Shown: positions 8,759-27,594 of the stretch, piece by piece | Layout: every line of letters begins with the position of its first letter | How positions within the stretch are numbered: position 1 is the stretch's first letter | Source of the DNA: Caulobacter vibrioides | GTDB taxonomy: Bacteria > Pseudomonadota > Alphaproteobacteria > Caulobacterales > Caulobacteraceae | Direction: 5' to 3' | Length of the DNA stretch: 64,000 nucleotides | NCBI GenBank assembly: GCA_001449105.1 | Contig: LNIY01000070.1 | Coordinates: 1-64,000, forward strand | Program-made: the position numbers and the translations under genes | Notes under the pieces: generated by a model | Seen by the model: the letters and a program-made list of their open reading frames with translations, nothing else | What the model was told of the DNA's origin: nothing | The model's database searches: none

Positions 8759-10147
8759 TCAGTGCTCGCGTCCCGTGCGCCAGAAGGTCTGCGACAGCGG
8801 CTCGACGAGATAGGCCAGGGCCGTTCGCTTGCGCAGCGGGATCAGCACCTCGACCGGAAGTCCGGCCTGAAGGCCCGAACGTCCGCCGCGCACCTTGCTG
8901 ATCTTGTCCAGTTCCTGCGGTGGGGCGGCGACTTCGGCCCGGAAGAACGAGGCCCCGGTCTTTTCGTCGGTGAAGCTGTCGGCCGACAGCTCGGTCAGGG
9001 CGCCGTTCAGCAGCGGCAGGTCGCGTTCGTGCAGCGAGGTGAAGCGGATCTGGGTCTTCTGCCCGGGCCTCAGGTCGTCGGCGTCGTTGGGCGAAATCCG
9101 CGCCTGGATGACCAGGCGCCGATCCTGCGGCACGATCTCCATCAGGGTCTGGCCGGGCGCCGCCACCCCGCCCACGGTGAAGAGGCTCAGCCCCACCACC
9201 TTGCCGCTGGAGGTGGCCCTGACCGTGGCCCGCGCCAGCTGTTCGCGCGCGGCCAGCACCTTGGGCTGCAGGTCGTCGAGCCGGACCTGGACGTCGCGCA
9301 GCTGGCCGGAGACCTCCTCCATCATCTCGCGCTCCAGCGACAGGGCCTGCAGGCGGGTCTCGCCGACGGCCTCGCCCGATCGCGCGATCTGGGCGCGATA
9401 GTTGCCGTCCTCGCCGGTCAGGGCGGCGGCGCTGCGTTGCAGGGCCAGGACCCGGGTCTTGGGCGCGTAGCCCTTGACCGCCAGTTCCTGGACGCCCCGC
9501 AGTTCCTCCTCGATCAGCCTCTGCTGCTCGCGATTGGCCTCCAGCTGGCGCTCGGCGCCCCTGGTCTGCTGGTCCAGTTGCAGCACCCGCTGGTCGAGCA
9601 CGCCACGCCGGGTCCGCAACGAACCTCGGCGGGCTTCGAACTGCTGGCGTTGCAGGCGCAGGGCGTCTTCGGCCAAGGGCTTGTCCTCGGGCGCCAGGGC
9701 GGCGAACTCGGACGGTGCGGCAATGCCGGCCAGGTGATCGCGCTCGGCGATCAGGCGCGCGCGCTGGGCCAGCAGGGTCAGGACCTCGCCGGTCATGCCC
9801 CGCTCGCTCGCGCGCAGTTCCGAGGCGGACAGCTCAACCAGCACCTGGCCCTTGACCACCTGCTGGCCTTCGATCACCCGGATCGCGGTGACGACCCCGC
9901 CCTCGCGGGTCTGCACCGCCTGGCGATTGCCGGCGACCGCGATCACCCCTTGGGCATAGGCGCCGGCGTCCAGCGGCGCCAGCGCCGCCCAGCCCAGAAA
10001 GCCGACGAAGAACAGGCAGGCCACGCTGGCCCCGGCGCGGATGGCCCAGGCCGGATCGTCCGACAGCCGCGGCGGAGCCTGCTTGGTGTCCTGGCCGGTA
10101 GGGGCGCCCGAGGCCGGCGCCGGAGGCTGGAGCGGAGAGCGGGTCAT
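8759..10147 (-). CDS. Type I secretion membrane-fusion adaptor, HlyD/PrtE family
   Basis: 462 aa from ATG 10147, whose ATGA overlaps the stop of the ABC gene; the longer open frame upstream is the shadow of that gene. After a proline-rich cytoplasmic tail there is one membrane segment (about residues 37-57), then a lipoyl-like half (GNRQAVQTREGG, VIEGQQVVKGQVLVEL), a long coiled-coil hairpin rich in Arg, Glu, Gln and Leu, the second lipoyl half (ATSSGKVVGL), and a beta-barrel end with RFTSLHERDLP. This is the HlyD/PrtE/LapC layout that bridges the inner-membrane ABC exporter to a TolC-type outer-membrane channel. No TolC gene is in the window next to it. Probable substrates nearby are the Hint-domain protein and the RTX protein at 20829. 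Confidence 0.92.
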   Translation of the reverse strand: MTRSPLQPPAPASGAPTGQDTKQAPPRLSDDPAWAIRAGASVACLFFVGFLGWAALAPLDAGAYAQGVIAVAGNRQAVQTREGGVVTAIRVIEGQQVVKGQVLVELSASELRASERGMTGEVLTLLAQRARLIAERDHLAGIAAPSEFAALAPEDKPLAEDALRLQRQQFEARRGSLRTRRGVLDQRVLQLDQQTRGAERQLEANREQQRLIEEELRGVQELAVKGYAPKTRVLALQRSAAALTGEDGNYRAQIARSGEAVGETRLQALSLEREMMEEVSGQLRDVQVRLDDLQPKVLAAREQLARATVRATSSGKVVGLSLFTVGGVAAPGQTLMEIVPQDRRLVIQARISPNDADDLRPGQKTQIRFTSLHERDLPLLNGALTELSADSFTDEKTGASFFRAEVAAPPQELDKISKVRGGRSGLQAGLPVEVLIPLRKRTALAYLVEPLSQTFWRTGREH

Positions 10148-11913
10148 GGCGCAGCCTGCAGGGCGGGCGTAGCGGCGGCGGACTTGCCGGCGGCCGCGCC
10201 GTTCGCCTGGACGGCGCTCTTGGCCGGGGGCGACATTCGGGCGACGACGTCGGCCCGCGGGCCGAGCATCTCGAGCTGGCCGTCGCGCAGCACCAGCAGG
10301 CGGTCGGCGATGTTGAGGATGCCGGTCCGGTGCGCGACGACCAGGATCGCCGCGTTGCGGGCCTTGGCGGCCAGGAGGGCGCGGTTCAGGGCCGCCTCGC
10401 CGTCGGCGTCGAGGGCCGAGTTCGGTTCGTCCAGCACCAGTAGCGAAGGCTCGCCGTAGAGCGCCCGCGCCAGAGCCACGCGCTGGGCCTGGCCCGCCGA
10501 CAGCCCGCGCCCGCTCGCCGCCAGCACGGTGTCGTAGCCCTTGGGCAGCCGCAGGATCAGATCGTGCACGCCCGCCGCCTGGGCCGCGTCCACGACCTGG
10601 GCGTCGACGATGGCCGGGTCGGCCCCGCTCCACAGGGCGAAGCGCGAGATGTTGTCCCTGATCGATCCCGCCAGAAGGCCGGACTCCTGGGGTACGTATC
10701 CGATATGTCGGCCGAGGCGATCACCGTCCCAATCGGCCAGGCTGGCCCCGTCCAGGCGCACGGCGCCGGCGTCGGGTGGGATCGCCGCGGCCGCCACCCG
10801 CGCCAAGGTGGTCTTGCCCGCCCCGCTGGGGCCGATGACGCCGAGAATTTCGCCCGGCGCGAGGCGCAGGGAAAGGCCCCGCAGCAGGATCCGCCCCTCG
10901 TCCGGCGCACGTACGGCCACCTGCTCAAGGGTCAGGATCCCCGCCGGCGGCGGCAACTGCGTGCCAGACGCTTCCGGTTCGGACGAGGGCTCAAACAGCT
11001 TGATCAGGTTGTTCAGGGCGCCGCGCGCCTGGCCGACCAGGCTCCAGGAGCCGACCAGTTGCTCGATCGGCTGCAGGGCGCGGCTCATCAGCACCGAGGC
11101 CGCGATGATCGCTCCGGCCGAGATCTGTCTCTCGACCGCCAGCCACGCGCCCAGCCCCAGGGCCGCCGATTGCAGGAAAACGCGGACGAACTTGGTCAGC
11201 GCGGCATAGCCGCCGCCGACGAACTGGGCCCTCGCCGAAAGGTCCAGGCCTTGACGGCGGTCGGCCAGCTGCCGCTCGCGCAGGGCGCCGCGCATGCCTA
11301 GAGACCGCACGACCTCGCCGTTGGCGGCGGCGGCTTCCTGCGAGGCGTAGGCCTTGGCCTGGGCGCCGAAGGCCTCCCGCGTGCGGGCGCGGGTGGCCCG
11401 CTCGTTCAGCGCCGCCAGGCTGATCAGCAGTCCGGCTCCGACGATCGTCATCGCGCCCAGCGCGGGGTGGATCAGGAAGGCCGCCAGCACATAGACCGGC
11501 GTCCAGGGGACGTCGAACAGGGCCAGCGCGGCCGGACCGGACAAGGTCTGGCGAACGAGGTCGAAGTCGCGCATGCCCTGCTGCGAGGCGCCCGGGATGG
11601 AGGCGCTCATCAGCCTTTGCAGCACGCCGCCGGCCATCAGCCGATCGAGGCGCAGGCTGGCCAGGACCAGCAGTCTCGACCGGACCGCGTCCAGGATCGC
11701 CAGCACGGCGAGGGCGAAGGCGACGACCAAGGTCAGGTAGAGCAGGGTCAGCCGGCCCTCGGTCGGCACAACCCGATCGTACACCTGCATCATGTAGATG
11801 GTGGGCGCCAGGAAGAGGATGTTGATCAGGGCGCTGAACACGGCGGCGGCCAGCAGGTGAGGGCGGCAGGCCCTCAGGGCGGCGGCCAGCGGCGCGGGTA
11901 GAAGAAGCGCCAT
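10144..11913 (-). CDS. Type I secretion ABC permease/ATPase, PrtD family
   Basis: 589 aa; start chosen at ATG 11913 (MALLLPAPLAAALR) rather than further upstream, because the membrane domain begins directly. The N-terminal half carries the six-helix exporter domain (FLAPTIYMMQVYDRVVPT is typical of PrtD/RsaD-like permeases). The ATPase half has Walker A GPSGAGKTT (about residues 361-369), the signature LSAGQAQRVALARAL (near 470) and Walker B LLVLDEPNSALD (near 492). There is no N-terminal C39 peptidase domain, so substrates should carry an uncleaved C-terminal signal, as for RTX proteins and S-layer proteins. A 4-bp overlap with the adaptor gene shows co-translation. About 110 bp separate it from the end of the Hint-domain gene on the same strand, so a joint transcript is possible. 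Confidence 0.93.
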   Translation of the reverse strand: MALLLPAPLAAALRACRPHLLAAAVFSALINILFLAPTIYMMQVYDRVVPTEGRLTLLYLTLVVAFALAVLAILDAVRSRLLVLASLRLDRLMAGGVLQRLMSASIPGASQQGMRDFDLVRQTLSGPAALALFDVPWTPVYVLAAFLIHPALGAMTIVGAGLLISLAALNERATRARTREAFGAQAKAYASQEAAAANGEVVRSLGMRGALRERQLADRRQGLDLSARAQFVGGGYAALTKFVRVFLQSAALGLGAWLAVERQISAGAIIAASVLMSRALQPIEQLVGSWSLVGQARGALNNLIKLFEPSSEPEASGTQLPPPAGILTLEQVAVRAPDEGRILLRGLSLRLAPGEILGVIGPSGAGKTTLARVAAAAIPPDAGAVRLDGASLADWDGDRLGRHIGYVPQESGLLAGSIRDNISRFALWSGADPAIVDAQVVDAAQAAGVHDLILRLPKGYDTVLAASGRGLSAGQAQRVALARALYGEPSLLVLDEPNSALDADGEAALNRALLAAKARNAAILVVAHRTGILNIADRLLVLRDGQLEMLGPRADVVARMSPPAKSAVQANGAAAGKSAAATPALQAAP

Positions 11914-12023: not shown

Positions 12024-13493
12024 TCAGCCCGCTTCGACCAGGCGCAGGCGGGGTGCTAAAGGGCTTGCCTGATTGAGCGCCTGGTCGGGCGCGACCCAAC
12101 GGGGAGAAACCATCGCCACCGCGATCTCGACCATGGTCTGAGCCTGTAGCGACGGCAGTTCGGCGGCGCCGTCGGTCCAGCGCCACGCCTGGCGCCGGCC
12201 GTCGGCCTCGAGGACCTCGAAGGCATGGAAACCGCGGCTCAGGGCTTCGGACGCCAGGTCGACCGCCGCGCCGCCGATGCGCAGTTCACTCAACGCCACG
12301 CCCAGCAGGCGGCGGTCCTGATGCTCGGGAGCGGCAAGCGCGGGGATGGCGGCGGGGCTGCGCAGCACCAGCCGGCGGGCCGGCTGAGCCAGGAACCAGA
12401 AGCGGTCGTGGTCGGAGAACACCGGAGCCAGCGACACGCCGTCGGCTTCGAGACTGACCTGGGCGTCGCGGGTGAACGTCCAGCCCAGGGCCAGGGCTCG
12501 GCTCCTCAGCTCGGCGCGCAGCGCATCGATTTTCGGGCCGTCGCGCAGCACCGGCGCACAGGCCTTGTCCCAGTCCTGGGGGTCCAGGCGGCCATACAGG
12601 GCCAGGTGGCCCGGCGCGTTGCCGAAGACCTGGCGGTTGCCGTCGTCGAGATAGCTCTCGCAGGGCAGGCCTTCGGCCAGCAGGATGTCGTGGGCGTCGA
12701 GTTCGACGTGGAAGTAGCGCACCAGCTCGACCGCTTCCTGGACGATGGTGGCGCCGTTGACCAGCAGGCCTACCGGGGTCAGCGCGCCATCGACATAGAC
12801 CGAGTGGCCCGGCGAAAGGCGCAGGTCGTCCGAGGGCAGGCCTTCGCCGAAGGCTCCGGCTCGCACCAGGATCGGCTGGACCTCGGCCGGGCGCGGGTGG
12901 CGGTCACAGCGCACCTGGCGGCTGCCGATCCAGATCGCCGGGCGAACGCCGCCACCGGCGGTGACCATCTCGTCGCCCTCGACCAGGTGCTCGACCGCCA
13001 CCGGGCCCCGCGTGGTCATGAGGCGAACGCCTTCGACGAAGCACACCGGCGCGACATAGGCGCTGGCGTCGTTGTCGAAGCTGAGGGGATAGGTCGGGTT
13101 GGGGGTGTTGCTGAGGATGGTGATCGGGTCCGACAGCGTGCCGTCCGGATTCTGGATCAAGAACGGGTTCAGGGAGAGTACGAGCCCGTTCTCCGTGGCG
13201 CCGAAGATATAGTATTGCGTCCCGCCGAAGTTGATCGTGCCAAATCTCGGGAAGTAATAGATGTAGGCGTAGTGGGCGGGACTATAGGCGCTGAAGCCCG
13301 CCGTGTAGGAGCTGTTGACGGCCGTTACTGTCTCGCCCGACGCGTTGGAACTGGTCAGCGTGCTGCCGTCGGAGATGGTGAGGGTGCCGGCCGCGGCGTT
13401 GGCCGAGGTCGGCGCGCTGAAGTTGAGGCGGCTCCCCACCGCGAAGGTGACGCCGACGAGGCTTTCCAGGACGCCGGGGTTGAAGGCGGGCAT
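12024..13493 (-). CDS. Hint (hedgehog/intein) domain protein, probable secreted protein
   Basis: 489 aa from ATG 13493, chosen because AGGAGAG sits 6 nt upstream. Residues 1-145 are Ser/Thr/Asn/Tyr/Gly-rich beta-type sequence with no recognised domain and no classical signal peptide. A Hint_2-type domain begins at Cys151 (CFVEGVRLMTTRGPVAVEHL), followed by GDEMVT, LSPGHSVYVDGALTPVGLLV and HVELDAHDILLAEGLPCESY, the arrangement common in alphaproteobacterial Hint proteins. The C-terminal 180 residues are unassigned. Hint domains can self-cleave at the Cys; here no partner extein is obvious. Lack of a Sec signal and the T1SS just downstream make it a candidate T1SS substrate (inference). The frame stays open upstream through a pentanucleotide tract to ATG 13637, an alternative start. 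Confidence 0.85.
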   Translation of the reverse strand: MPAFNPGVLESLVGVTFAVGSRLNFSAPTSANAAAGTLTISDGSTLTSSNASGETVTAVNSSYTAGFSAYSPAHYAYIYYFPRFGTINFGGTQYYIFGATENGLVLSLNPFLIQNPDGTLSDPITILSNTPNPTYPLSFDNDASAYVAPVCFVEGVRLMTTRGPVAVEHLVEGDEMVTAGGGVRPAIWIGSRQVRCDRHPRPAEVQPILVRAGAFGEGLPSDDLRLSPGHSVYVDGALTPVGLLVNGATIVQEAVELVRYFHVELDAHDILLAEGLPCESYLDDGNRQVFGNAPGHLALYGRLDPQDWDKACAPVLRDGPKIDALRAELRSRALALGWTFTRDAQVSLEADGVSLAPVFSDHDRFWFLAQPARRLVLRSPAAIPALAAPEHQDRRLLGVALSELRIGGAAVDLASEALSRGFHAFEVLEADGRRQAWRWTDGAAELPSLQAQTMVEIAVAMVSPRWVAPDQALNQASPLAPRLRLVEAG

Positions 13494-13510
13494 CGCGCTC
13501 TCCTGTGATC

Positions 13511-13553
13511 TTGTCTTGTCTTGTCTTGTCTTGTCTTGTCTTGTCTTGTCTTG
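13511..13553. repeat. Pentanucleotide tandem repeat, eight TTGTC units
   Basis: Eight perfect copies of TTGTC on the + strand (GACAA on the minus strand) followed by a partial TTG. On the minus strand the tract ends 17 nt upstream of the Hint-gene ATG, directly before its ribosome binding site. Short perfect tandem repeats with a unit not divisible by three are the classical substrate of slipped-strand mispairing. Confidence 0.97.
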
Positions 13554-13647
13554 GCTCGGCGCCGGTTCGGGGCGCGATCGACGGGTTGGCGCGACGGTAG
13601 GCGGGCGACCTGGGCGTGTCGCTGTGGCTAAACACATCTGGCGCAGC

Positions 13648-13680
13648 AAAAAGGGGCCTCGGCTTGCGCCGAGACCCCCC
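13648..13680 (-). terminator. Rho-independent terminator of the PstS-like gene
   Basis: On the minus strand, 24 bp after the stop at 13705, GGGGTCTCGGC and GCCGAGGCCCC form an 11-bp stem (one mismatch) with loop GCAA, followed by TTTTT. It isolates the PstS-like gene from the Hint gene, so the latter needs its own promoter between about 13494 and 13648, the interval that contains the pentanucleotide tract. Confidence 0.9.
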
Positions 13681-13704
13681 CAGTTGCGGTATTGCCTGAA
13701 AAGA

Positions 13705-15381
13705 TTAGGCGCCGACCTTGCTGCCGCAGGTCGAGTTGGTCACGCCGCTGGTGCCGGTCAGGCCGGTGCCGGCCGTCGCGATGCCCAGGTTCAGCGGGGC
13801 GGTCGGGTAGGTGCCCGCGGTGGTCGGCGTCAGGAAGGTGTTCTTGATCGCGGCTTGCCAGGCGGGCGGCAGGCCGGCCAGGCCGGCGTTGGCCAGGATG
13901 TTGGGGCTGCTGGTGTCGACGATCGCGTCGTCGAACCAGTAGTTCAGGTAGCCAACCGGGCTGCCGGTCGGGGCGGTGCGGATCACGTCGACGTTGCCGG
14001 CGGCGTAGCAGGTGTAGCCGATCCAGTTCACCGTGGCGACGATCGGATAGGCTTGGGCCGGGGTCGGGTTGGCGAGGTTGCCGACGCGGGTCCAGTCGGC
14101 CGGGTTGGAGCGGACGCCCCAGGCGGTCACGGTCGGATCATAGTCGCCCGAAGCGCCCGTGACGGTTTCCGGCGGACGGTTGGCGCCGAACGCGGTGGTC
14201 GCGTTGGCGGCGGTCGGGGCGCGATAGGCGCCGGCGCCGTTCTGCAGGTCGGCCGTGAACAGCGCGTAGGGCAGGCTGTTGTTGGACGAGTTCGGCAGGG
14301 TGTAGTCGGCGCCCAGATAGCCCAGGCGGCCTTGGGTCAGGCTGGTGCTGGCGGCCGGCGTGGCGGTGAAGCCCAGATAGGTGGCCGAGCCGTTGGTGCC
14401 GCTGGCGACGGTGAACTTGCCCGAGATCGGCGCACCGCCGACCGCGTTGCCGATGAGGGCGGGCGGCAGGGTGGAGGTGCCGGCGGCGGCGGTGAAGGCG
14501 TTGCCGGCCAGCGAGCCGCAGGCGGCCGCGAGGTGGCGGGTGGTCACTTGGGTCGTGCCCGAGCTGTCCGAACGGCCGACCAGTTCGATCGGAACGCTGA
14601 ACGCCGCCGCATCGGCCGGATCCTTCAGCGAGACGCCGCCGTTGTCGGCGGTGATGGCCGCGTCGTTCCAGTCGGTGATCTGGCCGTTCAGGATCTTGCA
14701 GTAGGTGGCTTGGCTGAGGCGCAGGCCGCCGTTGGCGCGAGCGAAGGCCGCGTTGACGGCGAAGCGGTAGGAGGTGACGGCGCCGCTGGCGTCGGCGACC
14801 TTCTTGTAGACCGGATCATAGGCCAGGGCGACCGGAGCCACGGCGACCGGGAACTGGACCAGCTTGCCGTAGAGCGGCTCGGGGATCGGGTACTGGTTGG
14901 CGCCCGACGGGCTGGCCGTCAGGGTCACGCCCTGGATCACGCCGCCGCTGTTGTAGGTCGTGACGTCGGCGTTCGACAGCGCGGTTTCCGACAGGCCGTA
15001 CTGGACCGACGGATAGTTCTGCGTGCCGGCGGCCGGGTCGACGTCGCCGTAGCGCAGGGGATCGTGGCTGTAGACGGCGGCGATGCCGGTGCCCGAACCG
15101 GTCGAGATGTATTCGACGGTGTTGCTGGTCGACAGGGCGGTCGGGCAGCCGGCGAAGGGCTGGATGTAGGGGGTGTAGGGCGCGCTGGTGTTGATCGGCG
15201 TCGGCGGCGTGCCGCGAGCGTAGAGCGGACGGTCGACGCCGTAGCAGTCGGCGACCTGGCGGTGATAGGGGGCGACCAGCGACGAGCCGCCGCCGTTGAT
15301 CTGGGCCTGGGCCACGCCGCCGAAGGCCGCGATGGCGGCCAGGGTGCTGACGCCCATCATGGCGTGCAGTTTGATAGACAT
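13705..15381 (-). CDS. PstS-like substrate-binding-domain protein, exported
   Basis: 558 aa from ATG 15381, with a clear signal peptide (MSIKLHAMMGVSTLAAIAAF... ending AQA, about residue 24). The mature start INGGGSSLVAPY, then QATYCKILNGQITDWND and GRSDSSGTTQVTTRHL are hallmarks of the phosphate-binding PstS/PBP-like fold. It is longer than classical PstS (about 340 aa) and lacks adjacent pstCAB genes, so it is more likely a free or surface-associated binding protein than part of a Pst importer; whether phosphate is the ligand is not shown. Codon use is highly biased and the gene has a strong terminator and a long AT-rich leader region, suggesting high, regulated expression. It is monocistronic. 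Confidence 0.85.
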   Translation of the reverse strand: MSIKLHAMMGVSTLAAIAAFGGVAQAQINGGGSSLVAPYHRQVADCYGVDRPLYARGTPPTPINTSAPYTPYIQPFAGCPTALSTSNTVEYISTGSGTGIAAVYSHDPLRYGDVDPAAGTQNYPSVQYGLSETALSNADVTTYNSGGVIQGVTLTASPSGANQYPIPEPLYGKLVQFPVAVAPVALAYDPVYKKVADASGAVTSYRFAVNAAFARANGGLRLSQATYCKILNGQITDWNDAAITADNGGVSLKDPADAAAFSVPIELVGRSDSSGTTQVTTRHLAAACGSLAGNAFTAAAGTSTLPPALIGNAVGGAPISGKFTVASGTNGSATYLGFTATPAASTSLTQGRLGYLGADYTLPNSSNNSLPYALFTADLQNGAGAYRAPTAANATTAFGANRPPETVTGASGDYDPTVTAWGVRSNPADWTRVGNLANPTPAQAYPIVATVNWIGYTCYAAGNVDVIRTAPTGSPVGYLNYWFDDAIVDTSSPNILANAGLAGLPPAWQAAIKNTFLTPTTAGTYPTAPLNLGIATAGTGLTGTSGVTNSTCGSKVGA

Positions 15382-15695
15382 GGGTGCGATCCTTTGTCTG
15401 TCTGAAATGAGCCCGCAGGCTCGCGATGTCTCGCTCCGCCACTCGCGCGGCGAAGAGTAGACTTTCAACTTTGATTAGTTGGTAGATTTGGTCTGTGGGC
15501 TTCCACTATCCGTTAGTCGATGTAACTCGCGGTGGTTGTGGTCGCTGTCTATTTCTATATTCGGCTGTAATTTTGAGTCAATTACTTGGGGTGGATTTGT
15601 TCAAGAATACATTATGTAAATAGTGTGACTGGTTTTCTGAATATAGTTATTGCGTCGATATGTTGAGATCGAAAGCTAGCTCGGGTTGGCGTTTT
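15382..15695. promoter_or_regulatory. AT-rich regulatory region upstream of the PstS-like gene
   Basis: A 314-bp gap between the PstS-like gene and the 3' end of the luxR-type gene. From about 15460 to 15700 the base composition drops sharply, with long AT stretches such as TGTAATTTTGAGTCAATTA near 15567 and TACATTATGTAAATAGTGTG near 15609, unlike the rest of the window. TACATTATGTA (15609-15619) is a near-perfect dyad. It must hold the promoter for the PstS-like gene. I could not identify a convincing Pho box or sigma factor consensus. Confidence 0.5.
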
Positions 15696-26193: not shown

Positions 26194-27594
26194 ATGATGG
26201 CTGAGTACGACTTCGACCTCTTCGTCATCGGCGCCGGTTCGGGCGGCGTGCGCGCCGCGCGGCTGGCGGCCCTGTCGGGCGCCAAGGTGGCGGTGGCCGA
26301 GGAATATCGGGTCGGCGGCACCTGCGTGGTGCGCGGCTGCGTGCCCAAGAAGTTCATGGTCTACGCCAGCGAGGTCTCCAGCCAGCTGAAGACCGCCAAG
26401 GGCTACGGCTGGACGATCGGCGAGGCCGGCTTCGACTGGAAGACCTTCCTGCACGACAAGGACGTCGAGATCGCACGCCTGTCGGGCATCTACGTCACCA
26501 ACCTGCGCAAGGCCGGCGCCCACCTGCTGCACGGCAAGGCCCGGATCCTCGATCCCCACACCGTCGAGGTGCTGCCCAAGGAAGGTTCCGAAGGGGACGC
26601 CGGCCGCTACACGGCCCGCCGCATCCTGGTGGCCACCGGCGGTCGTCCGGTGCGTCCGCAGTTCGAGGGCGCCGAGTACGGCATCACCTCGGACGAGGCC
26701 TTCCACCTGCCGACCCTGCCCAAGCGGGTGCTGGTGGTCGGCGGCGGCTACATCGCCGTCGAGTTCGCCGGCATCTATGCCGGGCTCGGCGTCGAGACCA
26801 CGCTCTGCTACCGCGGCTCCAACATCCTGCGCGGCTTCGACGACGACGTCCGCGCCCATCTCGCCGACGAGATGGAAAAGCGCGGGATCAAGGTCGTGCT
26901 CGGCTGCTCGCACCAGTCGATCGAGAAGACCGAGGCGGGCCTCGTCAGCACGTTCAACAACGGCCTGACCTTCGAGAGCGACGTCGTGTTGTTCGCCACC
27001 GGCCGCGACCCCTACGTCGAGGGCCTGGGCCTGGAGAGCGCCGGGGTGAAGCTGAAGGACGACGGCGCGATCGCCGTCGACGCCTATTCCAAGACCAATG
27101 TCGACAGCATCTGGGCCGTCGGCGACGTCACCGACCGCATCAACCTGACGCCCGTGGCGATCCGCGAGGGCGCGGCCTTCGCCCAGACCGAGTTCTACGG
27201 CAACCCGACCACCTTCGATCACGACCTCGTCGCTTCGGCGGTGTTCTCGCAGCCGCCGATCGGCGCGGTGGGCATGAGCGAGGCCGAGGCCCGCCACGCC
27301 TTCGGCAAGGTCGACATCTATCGCGCCGTCTTCCGGCCGATGAAGCTCACCTTCTACGGCGGCCAGGAGCGCTGCCTGATGAAGCTGGTCGTGCGCCAGG
27401 ACAACGAGCAGATCGTCGGCGTCCATGTCGTCGGTCCGGACTCGCCGGAGATCATCCAGATGGCGGCCATCGCCGTGAAGATGGGCGTGACCAAGCCGCA
27501 GTGGGATTCCACCTGCGCCGTCCACCCCACGCTGGCCGAGGAACTGGTCACGATGCGCGAGAAGTACGTGCCGGCCGAGGTGGGCGGCGTATGA
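26194..27594 (+). CDS. gor: Glutathione-disulfide reductase
   Basis: 466 aa from ATG 26194 (a second ATG follows at 26197). FAD-binding GAGSGGVRAARLAA is at the N-terminus, followed by the redox-active GGTCVVRGCVPKK (Cys44, Cys49), the NADPH-binding VVGGGYIAVEFAGIYAGLG, and the C-terminal dimer-interface HPTLAEELVTM with the active-site His-Glu pair. This is the Cys-x4-Cys class of flavin disulfide reductases, and the spacing and C-terminus match glutathione reductase. It regenerates GSH in the cytosol. It overlaps by 4 bp a membrane gene for an O-antigen-ligase-like protein, an unexpected partner. Confidence 0.95.
   Translation: MMAEYDFDLFVIGAGSGGVRAARLAALSGAKVAVAEEYRVGGTCVVRGCVPKKFMVYASEVSSQLKTAKGYGWTIGEAGFDWKTFLHDKDVEIARLSGIYVTNLRKAGAHLLHGKARILDPHTVEVLPKEGSEGDAGRYTARRILVATGGRPVRPQFEGAEYGITSDEAFHLPTLPKRVLVVGGGYIAVEFAGIYAGLGVETTLCYRGSNILRGFDDDVRAHLADEMEKRGIKVVLGCSHQSIEKTEAGLVSTFNNGLTFESDVVLFATGRDPYVEGLGLESAGVKLKDDGAIAVDAYSKTNVDSIWAVGDVTDRINLTPVAIREGAAFAQTEFYGNPTTFDHDLVASAVFSQPPIGAVGMSEAEARHAFGKVDIYRAVFRPMKLTFYGGQERCLMKLVVRQDNEQIVGVHVVGPDSPEIIQMAAIAVKMGVTKPQWDSTCAVHPTLAEELVTMREKYVPAEVGGV

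Follow-up and report, generated by a model that had tools for sequence, protein, structure and literature searches.

A lineage-specific pentanucleotide array in the probable 5' leader of a Caulobacter Hint-domain gene: a likely inert or weakly tuning spacer

Short tandem repeats located close to a start codon can act as switches of gene expression, and a perfect pentanucleotide array immediately upstream of a Hint-domain gene of Caulobacter vibrioides raises the question of whether its copy number switches, tunes or leaves unaffected the expression of that gene. The locus lies in a stretch of 64,000 nucleotides, analysed at its full length and referred to here as the window. The array and the elements at the gene start are as follows:

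13509..13553, minus strand: perfect (CAAGA)9 pentanucleotide array of 45 bp (TRF score 90, 100% match)
13498..13504, minus strand: Shine-Dalgarno-like (SD) sequence AGGAGAG, from the sequence, 4 nt before the ATG; AGGAGAG is kept in Caulobacter endophyticus
12024..13493, minus strand: Hint_2-domain protein of 489 aa (PF13403, E=2.4e-40, residues 150-284; start by orthologue alignment)

The preliminary description of this DNA reported eight TTGTC units at 13511-13553, located 17 nt from the ATG. The array itself was borne out but its extent was not, as TRF analysis gave a period of 5 and 9.0 copies at 100% match across 13509-13553, and the gap between the array end and ATG 13493 is 15 nt. On the minus strand the order is GCCGAGC, (CAAGA)9, TCAC, AGGAGAG (13504-13498), CGCG and ATG 13493; the array does precede the SD sequence of the Hint_2 gene, as had been described, with TCAC standing between them. 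It is real and far beyond chance. The longest period-5 run in the remainder of the 64-kb window is 13 bp, and a sample of 1.34 Mb from this genome has a next longest run of 16 bp (the repeat baseline also included 0.41 Mb of C. endophyticus), while the maxima of 40 Markov simulations were 13-17 bp. At 45 bp, the locus thus possesses the longer-than-chance perfect tandem array of a contingency locus. Neither the remainder of its own genome nor any of 74 other genomes in the genus contains the motif at three or more tandem copies. Two further features of simple sequence were observed in the sampled genome: a perfect 8-mer array (CAGAACAC) of 29 bp on contig C1 (L085:18619-18647), and, on contig C13 at about 26325-26426 (L101:6325-6426), a succession of long poly-C tracts, each with 13 to 22 C, and then poly-G within otherwise normal sequence, which looks like a sequencing or assembly artefact.

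The Hint gene is flanked by the following features:

10144..11913, minus strand: PrtD-type type I secretion ABC transporter (TIGR01842 above cut-off; start by homology with C. endophyticus)
8759..10147, minus strand: HlyD-type type I secretion adaptor (TIGR01843 above cut-off; start by homology with C. endophyticus)
13705..15468, minus strand: PBP_like_2 / PstS-like secreted phosphate-binding-type protein, the upstream neighbour (PF12849, E=2.6e-16)
about 13648..13681, minus strand: intrinsic terminator that ends the PBP-like gene (TTTTT after a hairpin of about -32 kcal/mol)

The Hint protein belongs to Hint_2 (PF13403) with 138.7 bits against a Pfam cut-off of 28.4; searches against solved structures and defence families showed no match. 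A CF.EG motif is present in the Hint proteins of the window, C. endophyticus and genomes G002 and G129, and its conserved cysteine (CFVEG) is a putative autoprocessing site. The secretion genes are followed by a TPR/sulfotransferase-like gene (named by inspection). The Hint protein is probably exported, and gene order alone suggests that it is a secreted substrate. A terminator closing the upstream gene at 13648 had been described and is real: the strong hairpin is followed by a T run, and it is conserved in two relatives. This terminator had been missed by a simple pattern scan, and the sole Rfam match, which was sub-threshold, lies on it.

Matches to the Hint gene were identified in four of 75 genomes of the genus, the window's own included. 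The closest relative, C. endophyticus strain BI (G020), has the gene order of the window, a Hint protein of 91% identity and an intergenic region differing by seven substitutions in 174 aligned positions. Comparison of tract copy number across related genomes, proposed with the preliminary description, showed that it differs between these sister species: C. endophyticus possesses two copies where the window possesses nine, a difference of exactly 35 nt or seven units. In a third, more distant congener (G002; Hint protein 64%) the PBP-Hint pair is kept and the repeat is absent. The array is therefore a lineage-specific, fast-evolving microsatellite, differing by seven units between sister species. 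One genome per species was examined, and the comparison behind direction and neutrality uses one close relative, C. endophyticus. The PrtD/HlyD pair (window 8759-11913) sits between the Hint and sulfotransferase-like genes in the window and in C. endophyticus; it is absent at the equivalent spot of G002, so this cassette has been gained or lost there. A fourth genome (G005) encodes a more distant Hint homologue in a different setting. Across 398 genomes of the order, one further homologue was identified; its N-terminus is different, and the tract is absent from the upstream bases examined. In another genus of the family (L121), a Hint homologue has a long, different N-terminal region, and a terminator and the end of another gene apparently lie upstream there too. 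Plasmids and viral contigs gave no matches.

Two conserved elements were identified between the terminator and the array:

13617..13636, minus strand: conserved 20-bp footprint TGTGTTTAGCCACAGCGACA with the dyad TGTG-N6-CACA inside (one occurrence per genome in three of 75)
13554..13616, minus strand: conserved leader from footprint to tract (alignment; one substitution in 63 nt against C. endophyticus)

The footprint (TGTGTTTAGYCACAGCGACA) occurs always upstream of the Hint gene and is absent, at up to two mismatches, from the other 72 genomes of the genus. It is the best 20-mer common to the intergenic regions of the window and G002, being the sole 20/20 match where the rest has diverged. 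It starts at the second base of an upstream ATG (13637), which it overlaps, and lies 143, 108 and 98 nt from the Hint ATG in the three genomes. It probably serves the Hint gene as promoter or operator. Upstream of this gene, the Caulobacter housekeeping promoter consensus scored no better than chance, and a sigma-70 scan gave nothing above chance. A -35/-10 reading made by eye (GCGACA-N14-CCTA, with fixed spacing in the window and G002) lacked statistical support and was dropped.

Two of 83 positions between the footprint start and the tract differ from C. endophyticus. Among four-fold sites of the Hint gene the figure is 61 of 288 (p about 1e-5), and among those of the PBP-like gene it is 22 of 284, relative to which the extra conservation of the leader falls short of significance (p = 0.13). 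Differences at four-fold sites amount to 0.21 for Hint, 0.24 for HlyD, 0.28 for the ABC transporter, 0.33 for LuxR and 0.08 for the PBP-like gene, and as the last value is low, conservation of the leader may be partly regional. The value of 0.08 was seen across the 439 C-terminal codons of the PBP-like gene (window 13705-15024), against 0.21-0.33 in its neighbours, and may reflect strong codon bias or local recombination. With regard to folding, the predicted cost of opening the SD sequence or the SD-start region is nearly constant from 5 to 15 copies (six assumed transcript starts), the energies differing mainly between 0 and 2 copies, and the repeat, which contains no U, is itself predicted to be unpaired. 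Predicted energies this flat speak against a strong influence of copy number by way of secondary structure, although copy number may still act through transcription, protein binding or the stability of the mRNA.

The reading that best accounts for these data, to which we assign a probability of about 0.6, is that the microsatellite lies in the probable 5' leader as an inert or weakly tuning spacer and is no on/off switch. Slipped-strand mispairing is the most likely process by which a two-copy CAAGACAAGA seed would have expanded into the array. The tract would lie within the untranslated 5' leader of the Hint mRNA, between a conserved promoter/operator and the SD sequence. As its copy number drifted, translation would be affected slightly or at most modestly, the tract acting as an inert spacer because it has no U and is predicted to be unpaired. 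Sequence comparison supports this reading through the two copies and nearly identical flanks at the same locus of C. endophyticus and the repeat-free orthologue of G002. It is also consistent with the uniqueness of the array in the genus, the footprint upstream of the tract, the conserved leader and the flat opening energies. Counted against it are a perfect, uninterrupted array right before the SD sequence of a secretion-linked gene, which is classic contingency-locus anatomy, the single close relative, a promoter consensus at chance level and the p value of 0.13 obtained against the PBP-like sites.

A less probable explanation, though the best placed of the rivals, is graded tuning, in which leader copy number would alter how much mRNA the Hint gene yields, how stable this mRNA is or how ribosomes load onto it. 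It has been described that the AGAT repeat of Moraxella catarrhalis uspA2 varies among strains and clones, with mRNA level tracking copy number and differing up to 3.4-fold (PMC7302503), and uspA1/uspA2 have been singled out as the cases in which repeats located between promoter and start codon were studied by experiment (PMC4679880). Like uspA2 (AGAT)n and the poly-G of uspA1, the Caulobacter tract is a short repeat between promoter and start of a surface- or export-linked gene. Its placement and perfection, the seven-unit difference between sister species and the location of the Hint gene, with its probably exported product, before type I secretion genes favour tuning. Unlike uspA2, the Caulobacter tract is known from sequence, with one genome per species. 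Predicted SD accessibility is flat over 5-15 copies. In contrast to the uspA1/uspA2 case, no other long period-5 array occurs in the sampled quarter of the genome (1.34 Mb), which gives no sign of general use of simple repeats. Marine Beggiatoaceae likewise have short tandem repeats directly upstream of start codons, the TAACTGA direct repeats, for which a post-transcriptional role has been proposed, but these occupy about 170 places in one genome, whereas Caulobacter has a single array with a normal SD sequence behind it (PMC4679880). It is somewhat more doubtful still that the tract is a Caulobacter pentanucleotide contingency locus tuning a type-I-secretion-linked Hint protein through 5' leader length; a literature search found no such contingency locus in this free-living genus.

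Transcriptional phase variation of the nadA or HMW kind, in which the array would change the spacing between an upstream operator and a gene-proximal promoter, is unlikely. The footprint does lie upstream of the tract at a distance from the ATG that varies among the three genomes, but the core promoter would have to be inside or downstream of the tract, in about 60 nt that are mostly repeat and that yielded no promoter-like site with support.

Translational phase variation by frame-shifting repeats, as with the CTCTT repeat of Neisseria opa, would require translation from ATG 13637 through the tract, each unit gained or lost shifting the frame, and is very unlikely here. The CAAGA unit is likewise a pentanucleotide not divisible by three. 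The upstream frame was correctly described as open: it runs for 82 codons upstream of ATG 13493, through the tract to ATG 13637 and beyond. Of the three genomes compared, however, it is open only in that of the window. In C. endophyticus a TAG lying 28 codons before the ATG closes it, with no ATG, GTG or TTG between this TAG and the Hint start, and the counterpart of ATG 13637 opens a different frame. In G002 the Hint ATG is immediately preceded by a TAG, and CTG stands where the window has the upstream ATG. ATG 13637 itself sits on the conserved footprint, and a good SD sequence serves ATG 13493, which changes in the tract leave intact. This ATG is the start common to the orthologues, as M-x-A-F-x-P-G-V-L-E-S-L-V-G aligns in the window, C. 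endophyticus and G002. Switching through an N-terminal extension is thus not supported; unlike in Neisseria opa, the tract lies outside the conserved coding sequence, and a change in copy number leaves the conserved frame untouched.

That the copy number is a sequencing or assembly artefact is least likely of all, for although the assembly is a draft (160 contigs) with at least one suspicious poly-C/poly-G stretch elsewhere, the 45-bp array is shorter than a normal short read, sequencing of pentanucleotide arrays is reportedly about as accurate as that of unique sequence (PMC4235727), and the seed and flanks recur in the independent genome of C. endophyticus.

If the tract does tune the gene, an environmental alphaproteobacterium and a Hint/type I secretion cassette would join the known cases of repeat-driven expression variation. 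If it does not, the locus would be instructive as a microsatellite with the looks of a contingency locus for which comparison with a sister species provides most of the explanation. The conserved footprint provides a concrete candidate regulatory site for the Hint gene.
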